Origin: Terriglobia bacterium
GTDB lineage: Bacteria; Acidobacteriota; Terriglobia; Terriglobales; Acidobacteriaceae
NCBI GenBank assembly: GCA_020072585.1
Contig: JAIQGL010000008.1
Span: 1-64,000 of the forward strand
Length of the DNA: 64,000 bases
Direction of reading: 5' to 3'
The notes beneath the pieces are model-generated. The model made no database searches. It saw only the letters and a program-made list of their open reading frames with translations, and had not been told where the DNA came from. This document shows positions 123-58,878 of this stretch, in pieces (positions within the stretch are counted from its first letter, which is position 1; the number at the start of each line of letters is the position of its first letter). A program made the translations under genes and the position numbers.

Positions 123-316
123 GGGAGGCACGGAGACACGGAGAAGAACTATAAGGGTCTTCTTGTTGAGCATCTTTGACGCTCGGAACCTTTCTATTTT
201 GGGCGAGAAAGTGCCGATCGAAGCGTGGCGGCCCTAACCGGGTAAACAACTCGGCCCGCGCCTTCACCGCGATCAAAAGATTTCCTCCGTTCCTCCGTGT
301 CTCCGTGGTGGATGTT
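123..316. repeat. Palindromic repeat copy A (CACGGAG-type arms)
   Basis: The left arm (about 123-146) contains two CACGGAGA units 8 nt apart. The right arm (about 281-314), read on the opposite strand, contains CACGGAGA, CACGGAGG and AACGGAGG at the same 8-nt spacing. The shared core CACGGAGACACGGAG is 15 nt. The roughly 130 nt between the arms hold no convincing gene. The copy lies between the transposase-like tail and the sdh operon. It shares arm design with the copy inside mnmG (50267-50373), and both have a TCTTCTTG stretch inside. Confidence 0.65.
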
Positions 317-34074: not shown

Positions 34075-36138
34075 ATGTCCCAAACCAATATTCAAGTCAC
34101 GCTTCCTGATGGAAGCAAAAAAGAAGTCCCCAGCGGCACCACGCCGCTTGATATCGCCCGGTCCATCAGCCCCCGGCTGGCCGATGCCACCCTGGTGGCG
34201 AAGATCCGGCCCTCGGCAGACGGTAGTGAGCCTTCAGCCAGCGAACCACCAGAAGCGGCTAAGGGCCCAGCTAGCATGCACGCGCAACACTCCAAGGCTG
34301 GCTGGCAGTTCGCCGACCTTAACAAACCGCTGGAACAGGATGTGGACCTGCGGCTGCTCACTGACCGTGATCCGGAAGCCCTGGAAGTGTACCGCCATTC
34401 CTCCGCTCATCTGCTGGCTACGGCCGTGCTCGAGCTCTTTCCTGAGACCAAGCTGGGCCACGGCCCGCCCACGGATAGCGGCTTTTTTTATGACTTCTAC
34501 CGCCCCACGACTTTCACTCCGGAAGACCTGGAGAAGATCGAGAAGCGCATGGGGGAGATCGCTGCGCGCGACGAAAAGTTTGAACGCGAGTTTATCCCGC
34601 GTAATGAAGGGCTGGCACGCTTCCGCGCTGAAGGCGACTTTATGAAAGTCCACTTCATTGAGCAGTTCACCAAGCCGGGCGAACCAATCTCCACGTACCG
34701 CAACGGAAAATTTGTGGACTTCTGCCGTGGCCCGCATATCCCTTCCACGGGCAAAATCAAGGCATTCAAGCTCACCAGCATCGCCGGCGCTTACTGGCTG
34801 GGCGATGAAAAGAACCCACAGCTTCAGCGCATCTATGGCACCTCGTTCTTCAACAAGAAAGACATGGAGCAGCATCTGCACGCGATTGAAGAAGCCAAGA
34901 AGCGCGACCATCGCGTGCTGGGCAAGCAGCTTGACCTGTTCAGCATTCAAGACCTGGCCGGCCCGGGGCTGATCTTCTGGCATCCCAAGGGTGGGCTCAT
35001 CCGCAAAGAGATGGAAGACTGGATGCGCGATGAGTACCTCAAGCGCGGCTACTCGCTGGTGTACACGCCCCACGCCTTCCGCGTGAACCTATGGAAGACC
35101 AGCGGCCATGAAGGCTATTACGCACAAAACATGTTCACGCCCATGGCGCTAGATGACGCGGAATATCGCATGAAGCCCATGAACTGCCCGGGGCACATCC
35201 TGATCTATCAGGACGCGCTGCGCTCCTACCGCGACCTGCCCCAGCGCTATGGTGAGCTGGGCACGGTGTATCGCTATGAGCGCTCCGGGGTGATGCACGG
35301 CCTGCTACGCGTGCGCGGCTTTACGCAGGATGATGCCCACATCTTCTGCACGCCTGAACAGATCGAAGGTGAAATCGTCGGGTGCATGGAGTTTGCCCTG
35401 GCGGTCCTCAAAGCGTTCGGCTTTACTGAATATCAGGTGGAGCTGAGCATCTGGGACCCTAACGACAAAAAGAATTTTCTGGGCGGTGATGAGAAGTGGG
35501 AGCTGGCCATACGTTCGCTGGAAAGCGCGCTTAAGAGCCTGAATATCCCCTACAAGACCATCCCCGGTGAAGCAGCGTTTTATGGCCCCAAGATTGACGT
35601 CAAATTGGTAGACGCCATTGGCCGTCCCTGGCAGCTTTCCACCGTGCAGTTTGATTTCAATCTGCCTGAGCGCTTCAAGCTGGAATATGTGGCGGAAGAC
35701 GGCTCACGCAAACAGCCGTTGATGGTGCACCGCGCTCTCTACGGTTCAATAGAACGCTTCTTTGGTGTGCTGATTGAGCATTATGCCGGCGCGTTTCCAG
35801 TGTGGCTCTCACCGGTGCAGGTGGCGGTCATTCCGATCAGTGACAAACATAACGAGTACGCAAAGAAAGTCACCCAGCAGTTGCAGGCAGCGGGTGTGCG
35901 CGTGCATCTGGATGATCGGGCGGAAAAAATGAACTCCAAAGTCCGTGATCTTACGATGCAAAAAATCCCGTTCATCCTGGTGGTCGGAGAAAAAGAGGCT
36001 GAGGCAGGGACGGTCAATGTACGCGTCCGCGGACAGCAACAGCCGGAAGGCACCGTTCCGGCGGAACAATTTGTGGCGCGCGTGAAGCGGCTGATCGCGG
36101 AGAAGACGGTAAACCTCACCACTGATAAACACGGATAA
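34075..36138 (+). CDS. thrS: Threonyl-tRNA synthetase
   Basis: The 687-residue enzyme charges tRNA-Thr. It has an N-terminal TGS domain (about 1-65), the editing domain with the zinc-type HxxxH (YRHSSAHLL near 106), class II motif 2 (YRYERSGVMHGLLRVRGFTQDDAHIF near 400), motif 3 (HRALYGSIERFFGVLIE near 555), and the anticodon-binding domain. A Ser/Ala-rich insertion lies near residues 44-75. The frame opens at 34000; ATG 34075 gives the normal start. The last nine codons (VNLTTDKHG) and the stop come from a palindromic repeat. Confidence 0.95.
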   Translation: MSQTNIQVTLPDGSKKEVPSGTTPLDIARSISPRLADATLVAKIRPSADGSEPSASEPPEAAKGPASMHAQHSKAGWQFADLNKPLEQDVDLRLLTDRDPEALEVYRHSSAHLLATAVLELFPETKLGHGPPTDSGFFYDFYRPTTFTPEDLEKIEKRMGEIAARDEKFEREFIPRNEGLARFRAEGDFMKVHFIEQFTKPGEPISTYRNGKFVDFCRGPHIPSTGKIKAFKLTSIAGAYWLGDEKNPQLQRIYGTSFFNKKDMEQHLHAIEEAKKRDHRVLGKQLDLFSIQDLAGPGLIFWHPKGGLIRKEMEDWMRDEYLKRGYSLVYTPHAFRVNLWKTSGHEGYYAQNMFTPMALDDAEYRMKPMNCPGHILIYQDALRSYRDLPQRYGELGTVYRYERSGVMHGLLRVRGFTQDDAHIFCTPEQIEGEIVGCMEFALAVLKAFGFTEYQVELSIWDPNDKKNFLGGDEKWELAIRSLESALKSLNIPYKTIPGEAAFYGPKIDVKLVDAIGRPWQLSTVQFDFNLPERFKLEYVAEDGSRKQPLMVHRALYGSIERFFGVLIEHYAGAFPVWLSPVQVAVIPISDKHNEYAKKVTQQLQAAGVRVHLDDRAEKMNSKVRDLTMQKIPFILVVGEKEAEAGTVNVRVRGQQQPEGTVPAEQFVARVKRLIAEKTVNLTTDKHG

Positions 36139-36206
36139 CCCTGATTATGCTTAACCTACCTTTTTGTCCTGATCCGTGTTCATCAGTGTTATCAGTGGTA
36201 AGGTTT
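36111..36206. repeat. Palindromic repeat copy C (short form with GxxExxY-element ends)
   Basis: The left arm (36111-36136) reads AAACCTCACCACTGAT then AAACACGGAT. The right arm (36172-36206), on the opposite strand, reads AAACCTTACCACTGAT then two further CACxGAT units. The spacer is about 35 nt with no gene. The outer ends (AAACCT-Y-ACC-R-CTGAT) match those of the gene-bearing element at 58365-58873. The left arm lies inside the end of thrS and the right arm just before the next gene. Confidence 0.75.
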
Positions 36207-36214
36207 GGAATTTC

Positions 36215-48591: not shown

Positions 48592-50766
48592 TCAGAAGCT
48601 AATTTCGTTTGCTGAACCTAACCGCTTTCCCTGAATTTCTATATACACATTGATCAGCGAAACAGCGGCCGGCGTAACACCCGGAATGCGCGAAGCATGG
48701 CCCAGAGTGCGCGGACGTACGCGCTGGAGTTTTTCATTCATCTCACGCGAAAGCCCGCTGACTTTGCCATAGTCAAACCATTCAGGAATCACGCGCTGCT
48801 CAGCTTTCTTCAGGCGCTCAATGGATTTGCGCTGCTGATCAAGGTAGCCGGCATATTTGATTTCGGTTTCCACGGTCTTCATCTCGTTGCGCGCAGCAGA
48901 GCTGAGCCTGGACGAGGGTTCGAGTCCAACATTCACTGCCGGTTGATCAATTTCCGCAAAGAACTCCGGATAGCTCTCTCGCACTACGCCGGTAAAGTCC
49001 TCAATCACGATCTCTGGCCGCTTCAGCAGTTGCCCCAGCGGCGCGCCAATCGCACCAGCCAGATTGTTCCCGCTTACTGGCGAGGCTGAAATGTTCAAAC
49101 GGTCGCCAGACTCGTCTGTGTCAGATGAAGCGGCAGAAGCGTTAGGGCCCTGCTTCGCCAGACGCTCCTGTTGTGCCCGGCTGACCTTCTCCAGCAGGTC
49201 ACCAGTGACTCGCATCTTTTCCAAAAATGCCATCATTTTTTGCGCGCGACTTTCCTTGGCCAAATAATCAGCCCATGCCGGACCGCCGATGAGTCCGATG
49301 CGCCTTCCATGCGGCGTAAGCCGACGGTCGGCGTTATCGATGCGCAGATGCAGGCGGAACTCCGCGCGCGAGGTAAACATACGGTAAGGCTCGCTGGTGC
49401 CTTTGCTGATGAGATCATCAATCAGAATGGCCGTGTAGGCCTCGGTCCGGTCCAGCACCAGAGGAGGCTCGCCTTTGATCTTCAACGCCGCGTTGATGCC
49501 TGCCATCAAACCCTGGCAGGCTGCTTCTTCATAACCAGAGGTTCCGTTGATCTGCCCGGCAAGAAAAAGCCGGTCGATTTTCTTTGTCTCCAGTGTCCGT
49601 TCAAGTTCAGTCGGATCGATGGAGTCATACTCAATGGCATATCCCGGCCGCAGCATCTCCGCATTTTCCAATCCGGGAATTGACTTGATCACAGCCAATT
49701 GCACATCGATCGGCATGGATGTACTCATGCCGTTGACATAGATCTCATGCGTGTTCAGGCCTTCCGGCTCAAGAAAGAGCTGGTGTGTCGTCTTGTCTGG
49801 GAACTTAACGATCTTGTCTTCAATGCTCGGACAATAACGCGGACCAATGCTCTGTATCTGGCCGGAATACATGGGCGAGCGATGCACGTTCTCACGGATG
49901 ATGCGGTGCGTCTCCTCCGTGGTAAAAGCCAGGTAGCACGGCACCTGCTTTTGCAGGATTTTTTTTGTGCGGAAGCTGAACGGCGTGGGATCAGCATCGC
50001 CGGGTTGGACTTCAAAGCGCAACCAGTCAATGCTGCGGCCGTCCAGTCGGGGCGGGGTCCCGGTCTTGAGGCGGCAACCACGAAGCCCCAACATCTTGAG
50101 CGATTCGCCCAGAAGCTGGGAAGGCGGCTCACCGCTACGTCCGGCAGGATAAGTTTGCTCACCGCAATGAATCAGCCCGTTGAGAAATGTACCAGTGGTG
50201 ACGATGACGGACTGCGCGCCCACGGTACGGCCATCACGCAGTTTAATGCCGCGGGCAACGGCGAACCTACCACGGAGGCACGGAGACACGGAGGAAGACA
50301 ATTCTTGCTCAAAATCTTCTTGCCCAGATTGATTTGTTTCCGTGTCTATGTGTCTCTGTGGTGGGTGTTCTTCCACAATCAATTCCGCCACTTCGGCCTG
50401 CTTGATGAAAAGATTGGGCTGGCTCTCCAGCACTTCACGCATCTTGAGGCGGTATTGTTGCTTGTCACACTGAGCGCGTGGTGACCAAACGGCGGGTCCG
50501 CGAGATGTGTTGAGCAGACGGAACTGGATTCCTACCGCATCAGTGACTTCGCCCATGATCCCGCCCAGGGCATCCACCTCACGGACCAGATGTCCTTTGG
50601 CTATCCCACCCACTGCTGGATTGCACGACATCTGGGCAATCAGGTCTACATTGAGGGTAAAAAGAGCGGTTTTCAGCCCCATGCGTGCCGCAGCCATGGC
50701 AGCTTCGCAGCCGGCATGTCCGGCGCCCACCACCACCACATCGTATTGTTCGGTGAAAGAAGACAT
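48592..50766 (-). CDS. mnmG: tRNA uridine-34 carboxymethylaminomethyl modification enzyme, with repeat-encoded insertion
   Basis: MnmG (GidA) works with MnmE to modify the wobble uridine of several tRNAs, using FAD. The FAD motif [10 protein letters not shown] lies at 14-23, [23 protein letters not shown] at 47-69, [14 protein letters not shown] near 233, and the C-terminal domain with [16 protein letters not shown] is complete. The protein is 724 residues, well above the usual ~620-630. About 36 of the extra residues (132-167) are encoded by a palindromic repeat in frame; another Ser/Asp-rich insertion lies near 555-590. No ribosome-binding site is visible before the ATG; TAAAAT (minus strand) lies 12 nt upstream. 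Confidence 0.95.
50267..50373. repeat. Palindromic repeat copy B, in frame inside mnmG
   Basis: The left arm has three CACGGAG units at 50271, 50279 and 50287 (8-nt period). The right arm (50337-50372), read on the opposite strand, has CACAGAGA, CACATAGA and CACGGAAA with the same period. About 19 of 25 arm positions pair. The ~105-nt element interrupts the mnmG frame between the strand ending AELIVE and RGIKLRDGR without a stop or frameshift. The encoded segment is rich in Glu, Gln and Ser and probably forms a surface loop. Confidence 0.8.
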
Positions 50767-57634: not shown

Positions 57635-58366
57635 ATGAAGGTGATTGTCATCATTCCCGCGGCTGGACTCGGCACACGCATGGCGTCTGCCGGCAAGAAA
57701 GGCGCGCCCTCCAAACAGTTCTTTGAAATCAACGGCACCCCGATTGTCATCCACACGCTGCGCGTCTTTGCCCGCAACCAGCAAGTCAGCAAGATCGTGG
57801 TGGCCTTACGCAAAAATGAGATGGAACGCTTTCGGCAGCAACTGGACAAAGAAAAACTTGGCGCGAAGGTCGAAATCGTGGAAGGCGGCGAGCATCGGCA
57901 GGAGTCAGTTGCCAATGCGCTTTCCCAGCTCCAAGCGGCCCCTGATGATGTTGTATTGGTCCATGACGCTGTGCGCCCGTTTATCGACGATGAAGTCATC
58001 GCCAACGTGGTCCATGAAGTGGAACGGCACGGCGCTGCGATTGCCGGCCTGCCCGCGGTGGACACGATCAAGCAGGTGGAACGCGCAGCGGAAGGCGCGA
58101 TTATTACGTCTACAATCCCACGCGAACGCATTGTTCAGGCGCAGACGCCGCAGGGCTTCCGCTATGAATTGATCAAACGCGCCTTTGACAGCGCCACAGC
58201 CGACGGCTTCACCGGCACGGATGAAGCTTCACTGGTGGAACGGCTAGGCGAGAACGTGTGGGTGGTAATGGGCTCGGCGCGAAACATTAAGATCACAACG
58301 CCGGCGGACATGGAGCTGGCGGAATATCTTCTGACGCGAGCAGCAACGAAGAACTTGGCGAGGTAA
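57635..58366 (+). CDS. ispD: 2-C-methyl-D-erythritol 4-phosphate cytidylyltransferase
   Basis: The 243-residue enzyme makes CDP-methylerythritol in the MEP route to isoprenoids. It shows IIPAAGLGTRMAS at 5-17 with a downstream lysine, VVHDAVRPFID-type VLVHDAVRPFIDD near 107, and RERIVQAQTPQGFRYELIKRAF near 164. An upstream frame opens at 57593, but ATG 57635 matches the family. ispF lies 512 nt further on; the two are adjacent or fused in many bacteria, and here a repeat-bounded gene separates them. Confidence 0.94.
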   Translation: MKVIVIIPAAGLGTRMASAGKKGAPSKQFFEINGTPIVIHTLRVFARNQQVSKIVVALRKNEMERFRQQLDKEKLGAKVEIVEGGEHRQESVANALSQLQAAPDDVVLVHDAVRPFIDDEVIANVVHEVERHGAAIAGLPAVDTIKQVERAAEGAIITSTIPRERIVQAQTPQGFRYELIKRAFDSATADGFTGTDEASLVERLGENVWVVMGSARNIKITTPADMELAEYLLTRAATKNLAR

Positions 58367-58873
58367 AGCCTCACCGCTGATGAACGCTGATCGGACTGAT
58401 CTTATGACTGTTGATCCCAGCTATAAACACTCTGAACTGAGCGAAGTAATCATTGGTGTCTTTTATGAAGTTTATAACGAACTTGGATATGGTTTTCTCG
58501 AATCTGTATATCGGAACTCGCTGCAGCTTGCACTTCTCGCCAAGAGTCTGCGGGTAGAAACCGAGGTTGCAGTTCCGGTTTTTTTCCGAGGAAAGAACGT
58601 TGGGGATTTTCGCGCCGATATGGTCATTAGCGGCTGCCTACTGTTGGAATTGAAGACCGCAGAAGCAATCATCATCGCACACGAAGCTCAGCTGCTGAAT
58701 TATCTGCGGGCAACAAATCTTGAGGTTGGCCTTATTCTAAATTTTGGCCCGAAGGCGCAAGTGCGCCGCCTCGCCTACGACAACACTCGAAAGCAATTCA
58801 AATCTCAGCGTGCTGGAGTCTCTTATTGAATTTCTTTAGATCAATTACATCAGCGTTCATCAGCGGTAAGGTT
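58365..58873 (+). mobile_element. Palindrome-bounded GxxExxY element (copy D)
   Basis: ACCGCTGATGAACGCTGAT (58373-58391) is repeated perfectly as its reverse complement at 58849-58867. Outside it both ends continue A-R-CCT-Y, as in copy C at 36111-36206. The only gene between the arms is the GxxExxY protein, whose first codons lie in the left arm. The left end overlaps the ispD stop and the right end sits 5 nt before ispF. No transposase is present and no target duplication is obvious. The interior is visibly more AT-rich than the flanking genes. Confidence 0.75.
58380..58829 (+). CDS. GxxExxY protein, PD-(D/E)XK nuclease-like
   Basis: The 149-residue protein carries the family hallmark GFLESVY at 38-44. 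A likely PD-(D/E)XK active site follows: D80 in DFRADMV, E90-L-K92 in LLLELKTAEA, and Q104 in HEAQLLNYL. Members are small, widespread and of unproven function; the fold suggests DNA cleavage or binding. The ATG lies in the left terminal repeat, so the first eight residues or so come from the repeat; ATG at 58404 is another possible start. The gene has lower GC than its neighbours and lies inside an element splitting ispD from ispF. Confidence 0.85.
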   Translation: MNADRTDLMTVDPSYKHSELSEVIIGVFYEVYNELGYGFLESVYRNSLQLALLAKSLRVETEVAVPVFFRGKNVGDFRADMVISGCLLLELKTAEAIIIAHEAQLLNYLRATNLEVGLILNFGPKAQVRRLAYDNTRKQFKSQRAGVSY

Positions 58874-58878
58874 TTTTT

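Follow-up and report, generated by a model that had tools for sequence, protein, structure and literature searches.

The 64,000-nt stretch of DNA analysed here, referred to throughout as the window, contains the gene mnmG (gidA), whose reading frame continues through a palindrome built of CACGGAG-type heptamers (Table 1). The two arms of this palindrome (50265–50366), 28 nt each, are 82% complementary and lie 46 nt apart, and its presence adds about 35 residues to the protein. An earlier, sequence-only reading of the window had described such an in-frame palindrome with CACGGAG-type units in both arms, and this description was borne out, with exact units in the left arm and decayed ones in the right. 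The repeat exceeds what would be expected by chance: its RNA fold had a z-score of −5.85 relative to dinucleotide shuffles, with none of 200 shuffles equally low, and the CACGGAGNCACGGAG pattern had 49 matches, at about 28 places, in the 6.9-Mb genome to which the window belongs (G000), compared to two for the reversed pattern. The palindrome is free of stop codons in just three of the six frames. Its 46-nt loop contains no nuclease gene and has no homology to the GxxExxY gene described below, and a 30-nt stretch of the insert was matched with 100% identity at another place in G000 (locus L070). An Rfam search of the window returned no matches.

Table 1. Positions of mnmG, its insert and variable loops, and related repeat elements in the window.
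Feature	Position	Strand	Remarks
mnmG (gidA)	48592..50766	(-)	724 aa, frame intact; Pfam GIDA 3e-170; PDB 2zxh
In-frame insert, residues 134-168 (MnmG site 1), holding the palindrome	50263..50367	(-)	105 nt
Left arm of mnmG palindrome	50265..50292	(+)	three exact CACGGAG units
Right arm of mnmG palindrome	50339..50366	(-)	three decayed units: CACAGAG, CACATAG, CACGGAA
MnmG site 2 (~residues 547-568)	49063..49128	(-)	low-confidence loop in model
MnmG site 3 (~residues 605-628)	48883..48954	(-)	loop longer than in other phyla
Gene-less pair of CACGGAG arms, intergenic	124..309		bounds by eye
Gene-less palindrome, CACTGAT/CACGGAT arms	36111..36207		bounds by eye
Complete arm-gene-arm element	58365..58875	(+)	CGCTGAT arms 58365-58391 and 58849-58875
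GxxExxY / PDDEXK_3 nuclease gene within CGCTGAT element	58404..58829	(+)	141 aa

The length of the enzyme had previously been attributed to the insert. This is correct for about 35 of roughly 100 extra residues; the rest lies partly in two other loops (sites 2 and 3), which are also longer than in other phyla. An AlphaFold2 model of MnmG, based on 71 sequences, had a mean pLDDT of 89.1 and matched 2zxh best among PDB entries (TM-score 0.90 by target). The block of residues 141–170 had pLDDT values of 46–61, and the insert is flanked by predicted strands at residues 126–133 and 169–176. In the model, the insert is thus the disordered tip of a β-hairpin, an exposed and presumably tolerant site, in agreement with the surface loop that had been predicted.

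Repeat insertions in the loops of MnmG

We compared 101 distinct MnmG proteins, measuring the length of each loop over identical alignment columns. Site 1 spans 27–34 residues (median 28) in 55 proteins from loci not titled Acidobacteria, three of whose titles name no phylum; in the window's family, represented by 26 genes, it spans 33–103 residues (median 59). For sites 2 and 3, the medians are 65.5 and 48 in the family, compared to 41 and 27 in loci not titled Acidobacteria.

CACGGAG or CGCGGAG arms occupy site 1 in five (G000, G002, G004, G006 and G007) of the eight readable genomes among the nine of the genus. G003 has a short loop at this site, and G001 and G008 have other palindromes. 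The precise absence of the insert in relatives, which had been anticipated, was therefore not what we saw: the genomes without CACGGAG at site 1 include two that hold another palindrome there, and even the shortest site 1 among the 26 family genes is five residues longer than the median of the 55 proteins elsewhere. Neither a target duplication nor a precise empty site was seen at site 1 among the relatives, which are too diverged there. Beyond the genus, the insert is not conserved as protein, so that conservation as ordinary protein sequence in distant Acidobacteriota, which would have spoken against an inserted repeat, is not observed. On an MnmG tree from which the variable sites were removed (incompletely in some rows; columns with residues in less than half of the rows were left out), the presence of CACGGAG at site 1 requires two changes; a single origin was neither established nor rejected (p-AU 0.344).

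The other two loops have been filled as well. A CACGGAG arm is present at site 3 in G004 and G007 and absent there from the window genome; no repeat was found at site 2 of the window genome, and repeats occur at this site in some other genera. A search of G030 with its own insert gave 28 matches, counting the insert itself; they fall on two distinct parts of the query, and one of these families also matches mnmG of G014, at site 2. The G032 insert is a palindrome of GTCGTTG units with 28 matches in G032 and 58 in G035, counts that may include a place twice because a palindromic query can match it on each strand; five of the eight genomes searched gave none. One of the G035 matches falls in site 1 of the G035 mnmG gene. 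Inside the CACGGAG palindrome of G006 lies a GATCGGGT-type repeat, similar to arms around S23 genes (L314), which looks like a nested second event. MnmG thus has three loops that are repeatedly filled, by unrelated repeat families in several genera.

In 27 genes (the 26 of the family and one of the class), the inverted repeat at site 1 was stronger than that of every same-length window tested elsewhere in the gene in 11 cases, and that at site 2 in two. The remaining 16 genes have no inverted repeat at site 1 exceeding the rest of the gene, so not every MnmG loop is explained in this way. Two other measures were rejected as general tests. The fold z-score reached −3 at site 1 in eight of the 27 genes, compared to 1.4% of 1716 background windows, and the minimum was taken over several windows, which biases the test toward site 1. 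A BLAST search against the own genome at a loose cut-off (about 2 to 301 kb of sequence searched per genome) gave matches for 11 of 21 inserts and also for 43 of 545 control windows, up to 9 of 25 in G026. More weight is therefore given to the G030 and G032 insert matches above and to the matches with S23 arms, with their controls, below.

Two irregular genes were observed in the course of the comparison. The MnmG of G031 (L020) has 802 aa, and its site 3, with 170 residues over the compared columns, resembles several consecutive repeats. About 1 kb past the mnmG gene of G004 there is a second, stop-bearing stretch similar to the last 67 mnmG codons (L238, G004:C12:458453-458653), as if something had inserted at the 3' end of the gene.

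The CACGGAG family and the GxxExxY elements

The CACGGAG repeats are dispersed in the genome and beyond it. The CACGGAGNCACGGAG pattern is present in 28 of the 61 genomes searched, including G000, and CACGGAGRCACGGAG has five matches in the window with up to two mismatches, compared to 0.32 expected. In the window and 26 further places in G000, all stretches picked around matches, we counted 30 solo arms and eight pairs, one of which encloses a GxxExxY gene. Copies are intergenic and also lie within other genes. An in-frame copy is found in the UvrD/PcrA helicase, inside the UvrD_C match; a POTRA/FtsQ-type protein has two in-frame arms in its C-terminal tail; and in-frame copies lie at the C-termini of a RibF-like gene and a flavoprotein gene. 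Among eight genomes of the genus compared, the arm in the UvrD linker is present in G000, G002, G003, G004 and G007 and absent from G001, G006 and G008. The UvrD/PcrA linker of G001 (L268) has about 190 extra residues, which resemble a foreign domain. The start of the contig (window positions ~85–150) shares about 45 nt, running into a CACGGAG arm, with locus L078 in the end region of contig G000:C38; a copy of the repeat may be where the assembly broke.

Arms of the same type bracket genes of the PDDEXK_3 family, at L281 in G000 (contig C53; CGCGGAG arms) and at L282, L283 and L290 elsewhere in the genus (CACGGAG arms). All 19 GxxExxY genes in five genus genomes (counting two neighbours and one fragment) are bracketed by inverted arms, as are 22 of 28 in the family, compared to none of 600 random intervals. 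In a pooled set of 46 loci, from which one further locus with uncertain coordinates was left out, 40 have the gene enclosed between inverted arms composed of CRCNNAN heptamers in tandem. A CRCNNAN pair occurs in 35 of 40 GxxExxY arms, in 1 of 44 arms of PF05635 genes and in 15 of 2000 random 28-mers. The arms of the mnmG palindrome likewise consist of tandem CRCNNAN heptamers in inverted orientation. Among GxxExxY loci from other taxa, 14 of 30 have similar arms, all 14 of them with CRCNNAN heptamers (random controls, 0 of 500). The nuclease sequences, of PF13366 type, have the D, ExK and GxxExxY motifs invariant in 39 sequences, and a predicted model has the PDDEXK fold. When the heptamer types were placed on the nuclease tree, 11 changes were required, compared to 25.3 after shuffling, and none of 200 shuffles reached so low a number. 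The last base, T or G, switches once, and the GGAT type (three rows) is not clustered. The arms and the GxxExxY nuclease thus go together and largely covary.

The window itself holds a complete element of this kind, of CGCTGAT type, between two genes that we take, from their protein sequences, to be ispD and ispF. The same gap in G006 also holds a CGCTGAT-type element, 57–72% identical per 60 columns. In G004 the element is of CGCGGAT type and 42–73% identical per 60 columns, between flanks that are 77–88% identical; the gap seems to have been refilled in G004, or the element to have changed type. The gene-less palindrome at 36111–36207 is absent from G004, where its flanks lie about 20 kb apart, and from G006, where the stretch examined contained just one of the flanks. 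At the corresponding place, G007 has several repeat families joined into a composite, with one stretch resembling a Y1-transposase end.

We considered whether gene-less copies could be internal deletions of GxxExxY elements. For seven gene-less pairs, all matches of the loops were to arms or to sequence lying outside the nuclease gene, and none of the loops is homologous to the gene. These pairs are therefore not simple internal deletions, and this origin was rejected.

A parallel class of elements carries PF05635 genes, which encode the S23-type four-helix-bundle protein of 23S rRNA intervening sequences. Of 57 such loci, which include a few neighbours or pieces of one gene, 44 have the gene bracketed, by arms made of other heptamers, such as AGTTCTC, AGTTTCA and TCAGCAN. 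These genes were rejected as carriers of the CACGGAG arms: a single arm-like match was found in 27 loci, most of which have their own arms. Of 12 site-1 inserts of MnmG tested, five match S23 arms, three of them (G032, G033 and G018) within their own genome; 303 control windows from the same 12 genes gave no match.

Origin of the mnmG palindrome

Taken together, we consider it probable that the mnmG palindrome belongs, as a form lacking a gene, to the CACGGAG family of arms that bracket GxxExxY genes, and that it entered the hairpin tip of MnmG in an ancestor within the genus and has been translated since. In the genus, CACGGAG-type heptamer arms and the GxxExxY nuclease genes that they bracket form arm-gene-arm units roughly 0.5 kb long. 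The nuclease might bind or cut its own arms, possibly in cruciform or hairpin form, and thereby move them, as might the S23 protein with the arms of the parallel class; the palindrome would have come to MnmG by such nuclease-driven spread of arms. Selection may then have retained only frame-preserving copies at a harmless tip, where the insert would be made as protein and be close to neutral. We infer that it is tolerated because the tip is predicted to be exposed and disordered and the palindrome is stop-free in the frame used.

The order of events could be the reverse, with arms that spread by slippage, template switching or gene conversion and with the GxxExxY and S23 genes as passengers or homing genes that settled between them. 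The excess of solo arms over pairs, in stretches picked around matches, is consistent with this, as are the gene-less loops unrelated to the nuclease gene, the one layout common to two unrelated gene families, and G011, which has 21 matches to the CACGGAG pattern and no PF13366 match. S23 proteins are not known nucleases and their genes have the same layout, so the mover may indeed be something else. Against this stands the tree of the nuclease, which arm type largely tracks across genera. This result weakens the repeat-first scenario, which we regard as rather unlikely, and less so than the other alternatives.

The palindrome could also be a REP-type element moved by an IS200-like tyrosine (Y1) transposase. 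G000 has 11 Y1_Tnp matches, and for two of them the distance to a CACGGAG arm is about 1 kb or less. Of 10 Y1 loci (about 2–3 kb each), 6 contain a loosely defined arm pattern and one contains a stricter version of it. Some other MnmG inserts, such as the short perfect hairpins in G035, G013, G021 and G036, look more REP-like. However, CACGGAG arms bracket no Y1 gene among the 9–10 loci examined, and six of nine are bracketed by inverted repeats of other sequence. Both G000 Y1 genes with a nearby arm have other ends, such as GCGAGCCCCGTAGGGCGCGACAC (by eye). The Y1 transposases were consequently rejected as carriers of the CACGGAG arms, and we consider a Y1-driven origin of the palindrome improbable. 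In the Y1 genes at L183, L184, L189 and L190, we observed inverted ends of their own, for example CAGCGCCGGAGGCGCG...AGCCCAGGCC, unrelated to the heptamer arms.

Ordinary growth of a fast-evolving, low-complexity loop, with a palindrome arising by chance or local duplication, would agree with the variability and predicted disorder of the site-1 loop and with the 16 genes in which site 1 does not stand out. It does not account for the exact 30-nt match of the window insert to another place in G000, or for the inserts of G032, G033 and G018 that match S23 arms of the same genome where the controls match none; for the window insert this explanation is disfavoured, and we think it very improbable. 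An assembly artefact is a practically negligible prospect: the genome is a 74-contig draft and the start of the contig is close to another CACGGAG pair (124–309), but the insert lies in frame inside a 165-kb contig, such arms are found at the identical place in the separate assemblies of G002, G004, G006 and G007, and the different inserts that fill site 1 in separate assemblies do not bear out the concern of the sequence-only reading on this point.

Returning to a mobile arm associated with a nuclease, we tentatively extend this reading across phyla, in a form that we consider possible and a little short of probable. The elements would be minimal selfish units of about 0.5 kb, each consisting of one small gene (GxxExxY or S23) and private inverted heptamer arms recognised by its protein; their gene-less forms would land repeatedly in the three MnmG loops and in other housekeeping proteins, and become protein.

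Relation to known elements

Palindromes that code for protein have been described in Rickettsia and Wolbachia (RPE and WPE; cited in PMC3733652). The mnmG palindrome resembles them in behaviour, as a member of a dispersed family of palindromes that are read in frame within conserved genes where the protein tolerates insertion. It differs in that it occurs in another phylum, that its arms are heptamer triplets tied to a nuclease gene family, and that, in a single enzyme, the same loops have taken up repeats from several unrelated families. The Rickettsia parallel drawn by the sequence-only reading therefore applies to the in-frame palindrome, the conserved protein and the dispersed family; it was incomplete in that intragenic REPs were already known from several phyla and in that the arms are linked to a nuclease. 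MITEs are short, gene-less elements whose inverted ends are common to a gene-bearing form. The mnmG palindrome is likewise short and gene-less, with ends in common with a gene-bearing form. Unlike in MITEs, the interior is not derived from that form, as seen in the seven loops; solo arms are common, and no target duplication was seen among relatives that are strongly diverged at the site.

Intragenic REPs have been reported in several phyla, including in uvr genes and tRNA pseudouridine synthases, and TIRYTs have been described in Acidobacteria, according to the main text of PMC3733652. The GTAG/CGTC REPs, RAYT REPtrons and TIRYTs, as presented there, share with the present elements short repeats linked to a small DNA-acting enzyme, and the occurrence of intragenic copies (PMC3733652). 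Their units are single self-complementary sequences of 20–40 bp together with a Y1 transposase, whereas here inverted arms of heptamer triplets surround a PDDEXK nuclease (PMC3733652, main text). The main text of that article contains none of the terms mnmG, gidA and heptamer. Within 23S rRNA intervening sequences, an S23p gene lies inside terminal inverted repeats, an arrangement described as selfish in PMC4990558. The likeness extends to MnmG of some relatives of the window genome, which also contains S23-type arms. In that description, the intervening sequence sits in rRNA and is excised by RNase III (PMC4990558), in contrast to the dispersed units seen here, whose mnmG copies are gene-less and in frame. 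In the open-access literature, we found no account of MnmG inserts or of MnmG as a repeated target, of arms flanking GxxExxY genes or of CACGGAG strings.

The insert indicates that protein-coding palindromes are at work in Acidobacteriota, with a presumably unrelated sequence, and MnmG offers a natural experiment in which three loops of one enzyme have received many inserts from different repeat families. A widespread family named merely GxxExxY by NCBIfam is tied through covariation to a specific DNA partner, and its function is therefore directly testable; for the S23 intervening-sequence proteins, membership in a wider, dispersed type of element is suggested. If the cross-phylum reading is true, GxxExxY proteins would thereby be assigned a function, and protein loops would be seen to originate from palindromic selfish DNA far beyond Rickettsia.

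Finally, GxxExxY and S23 domains were observed in far longer reading frames of 479 aa (G033:C21:73832-74167) and 302 aa (G011:C132:528-845), which are perhaps whole elements that lie in frame with another gene.
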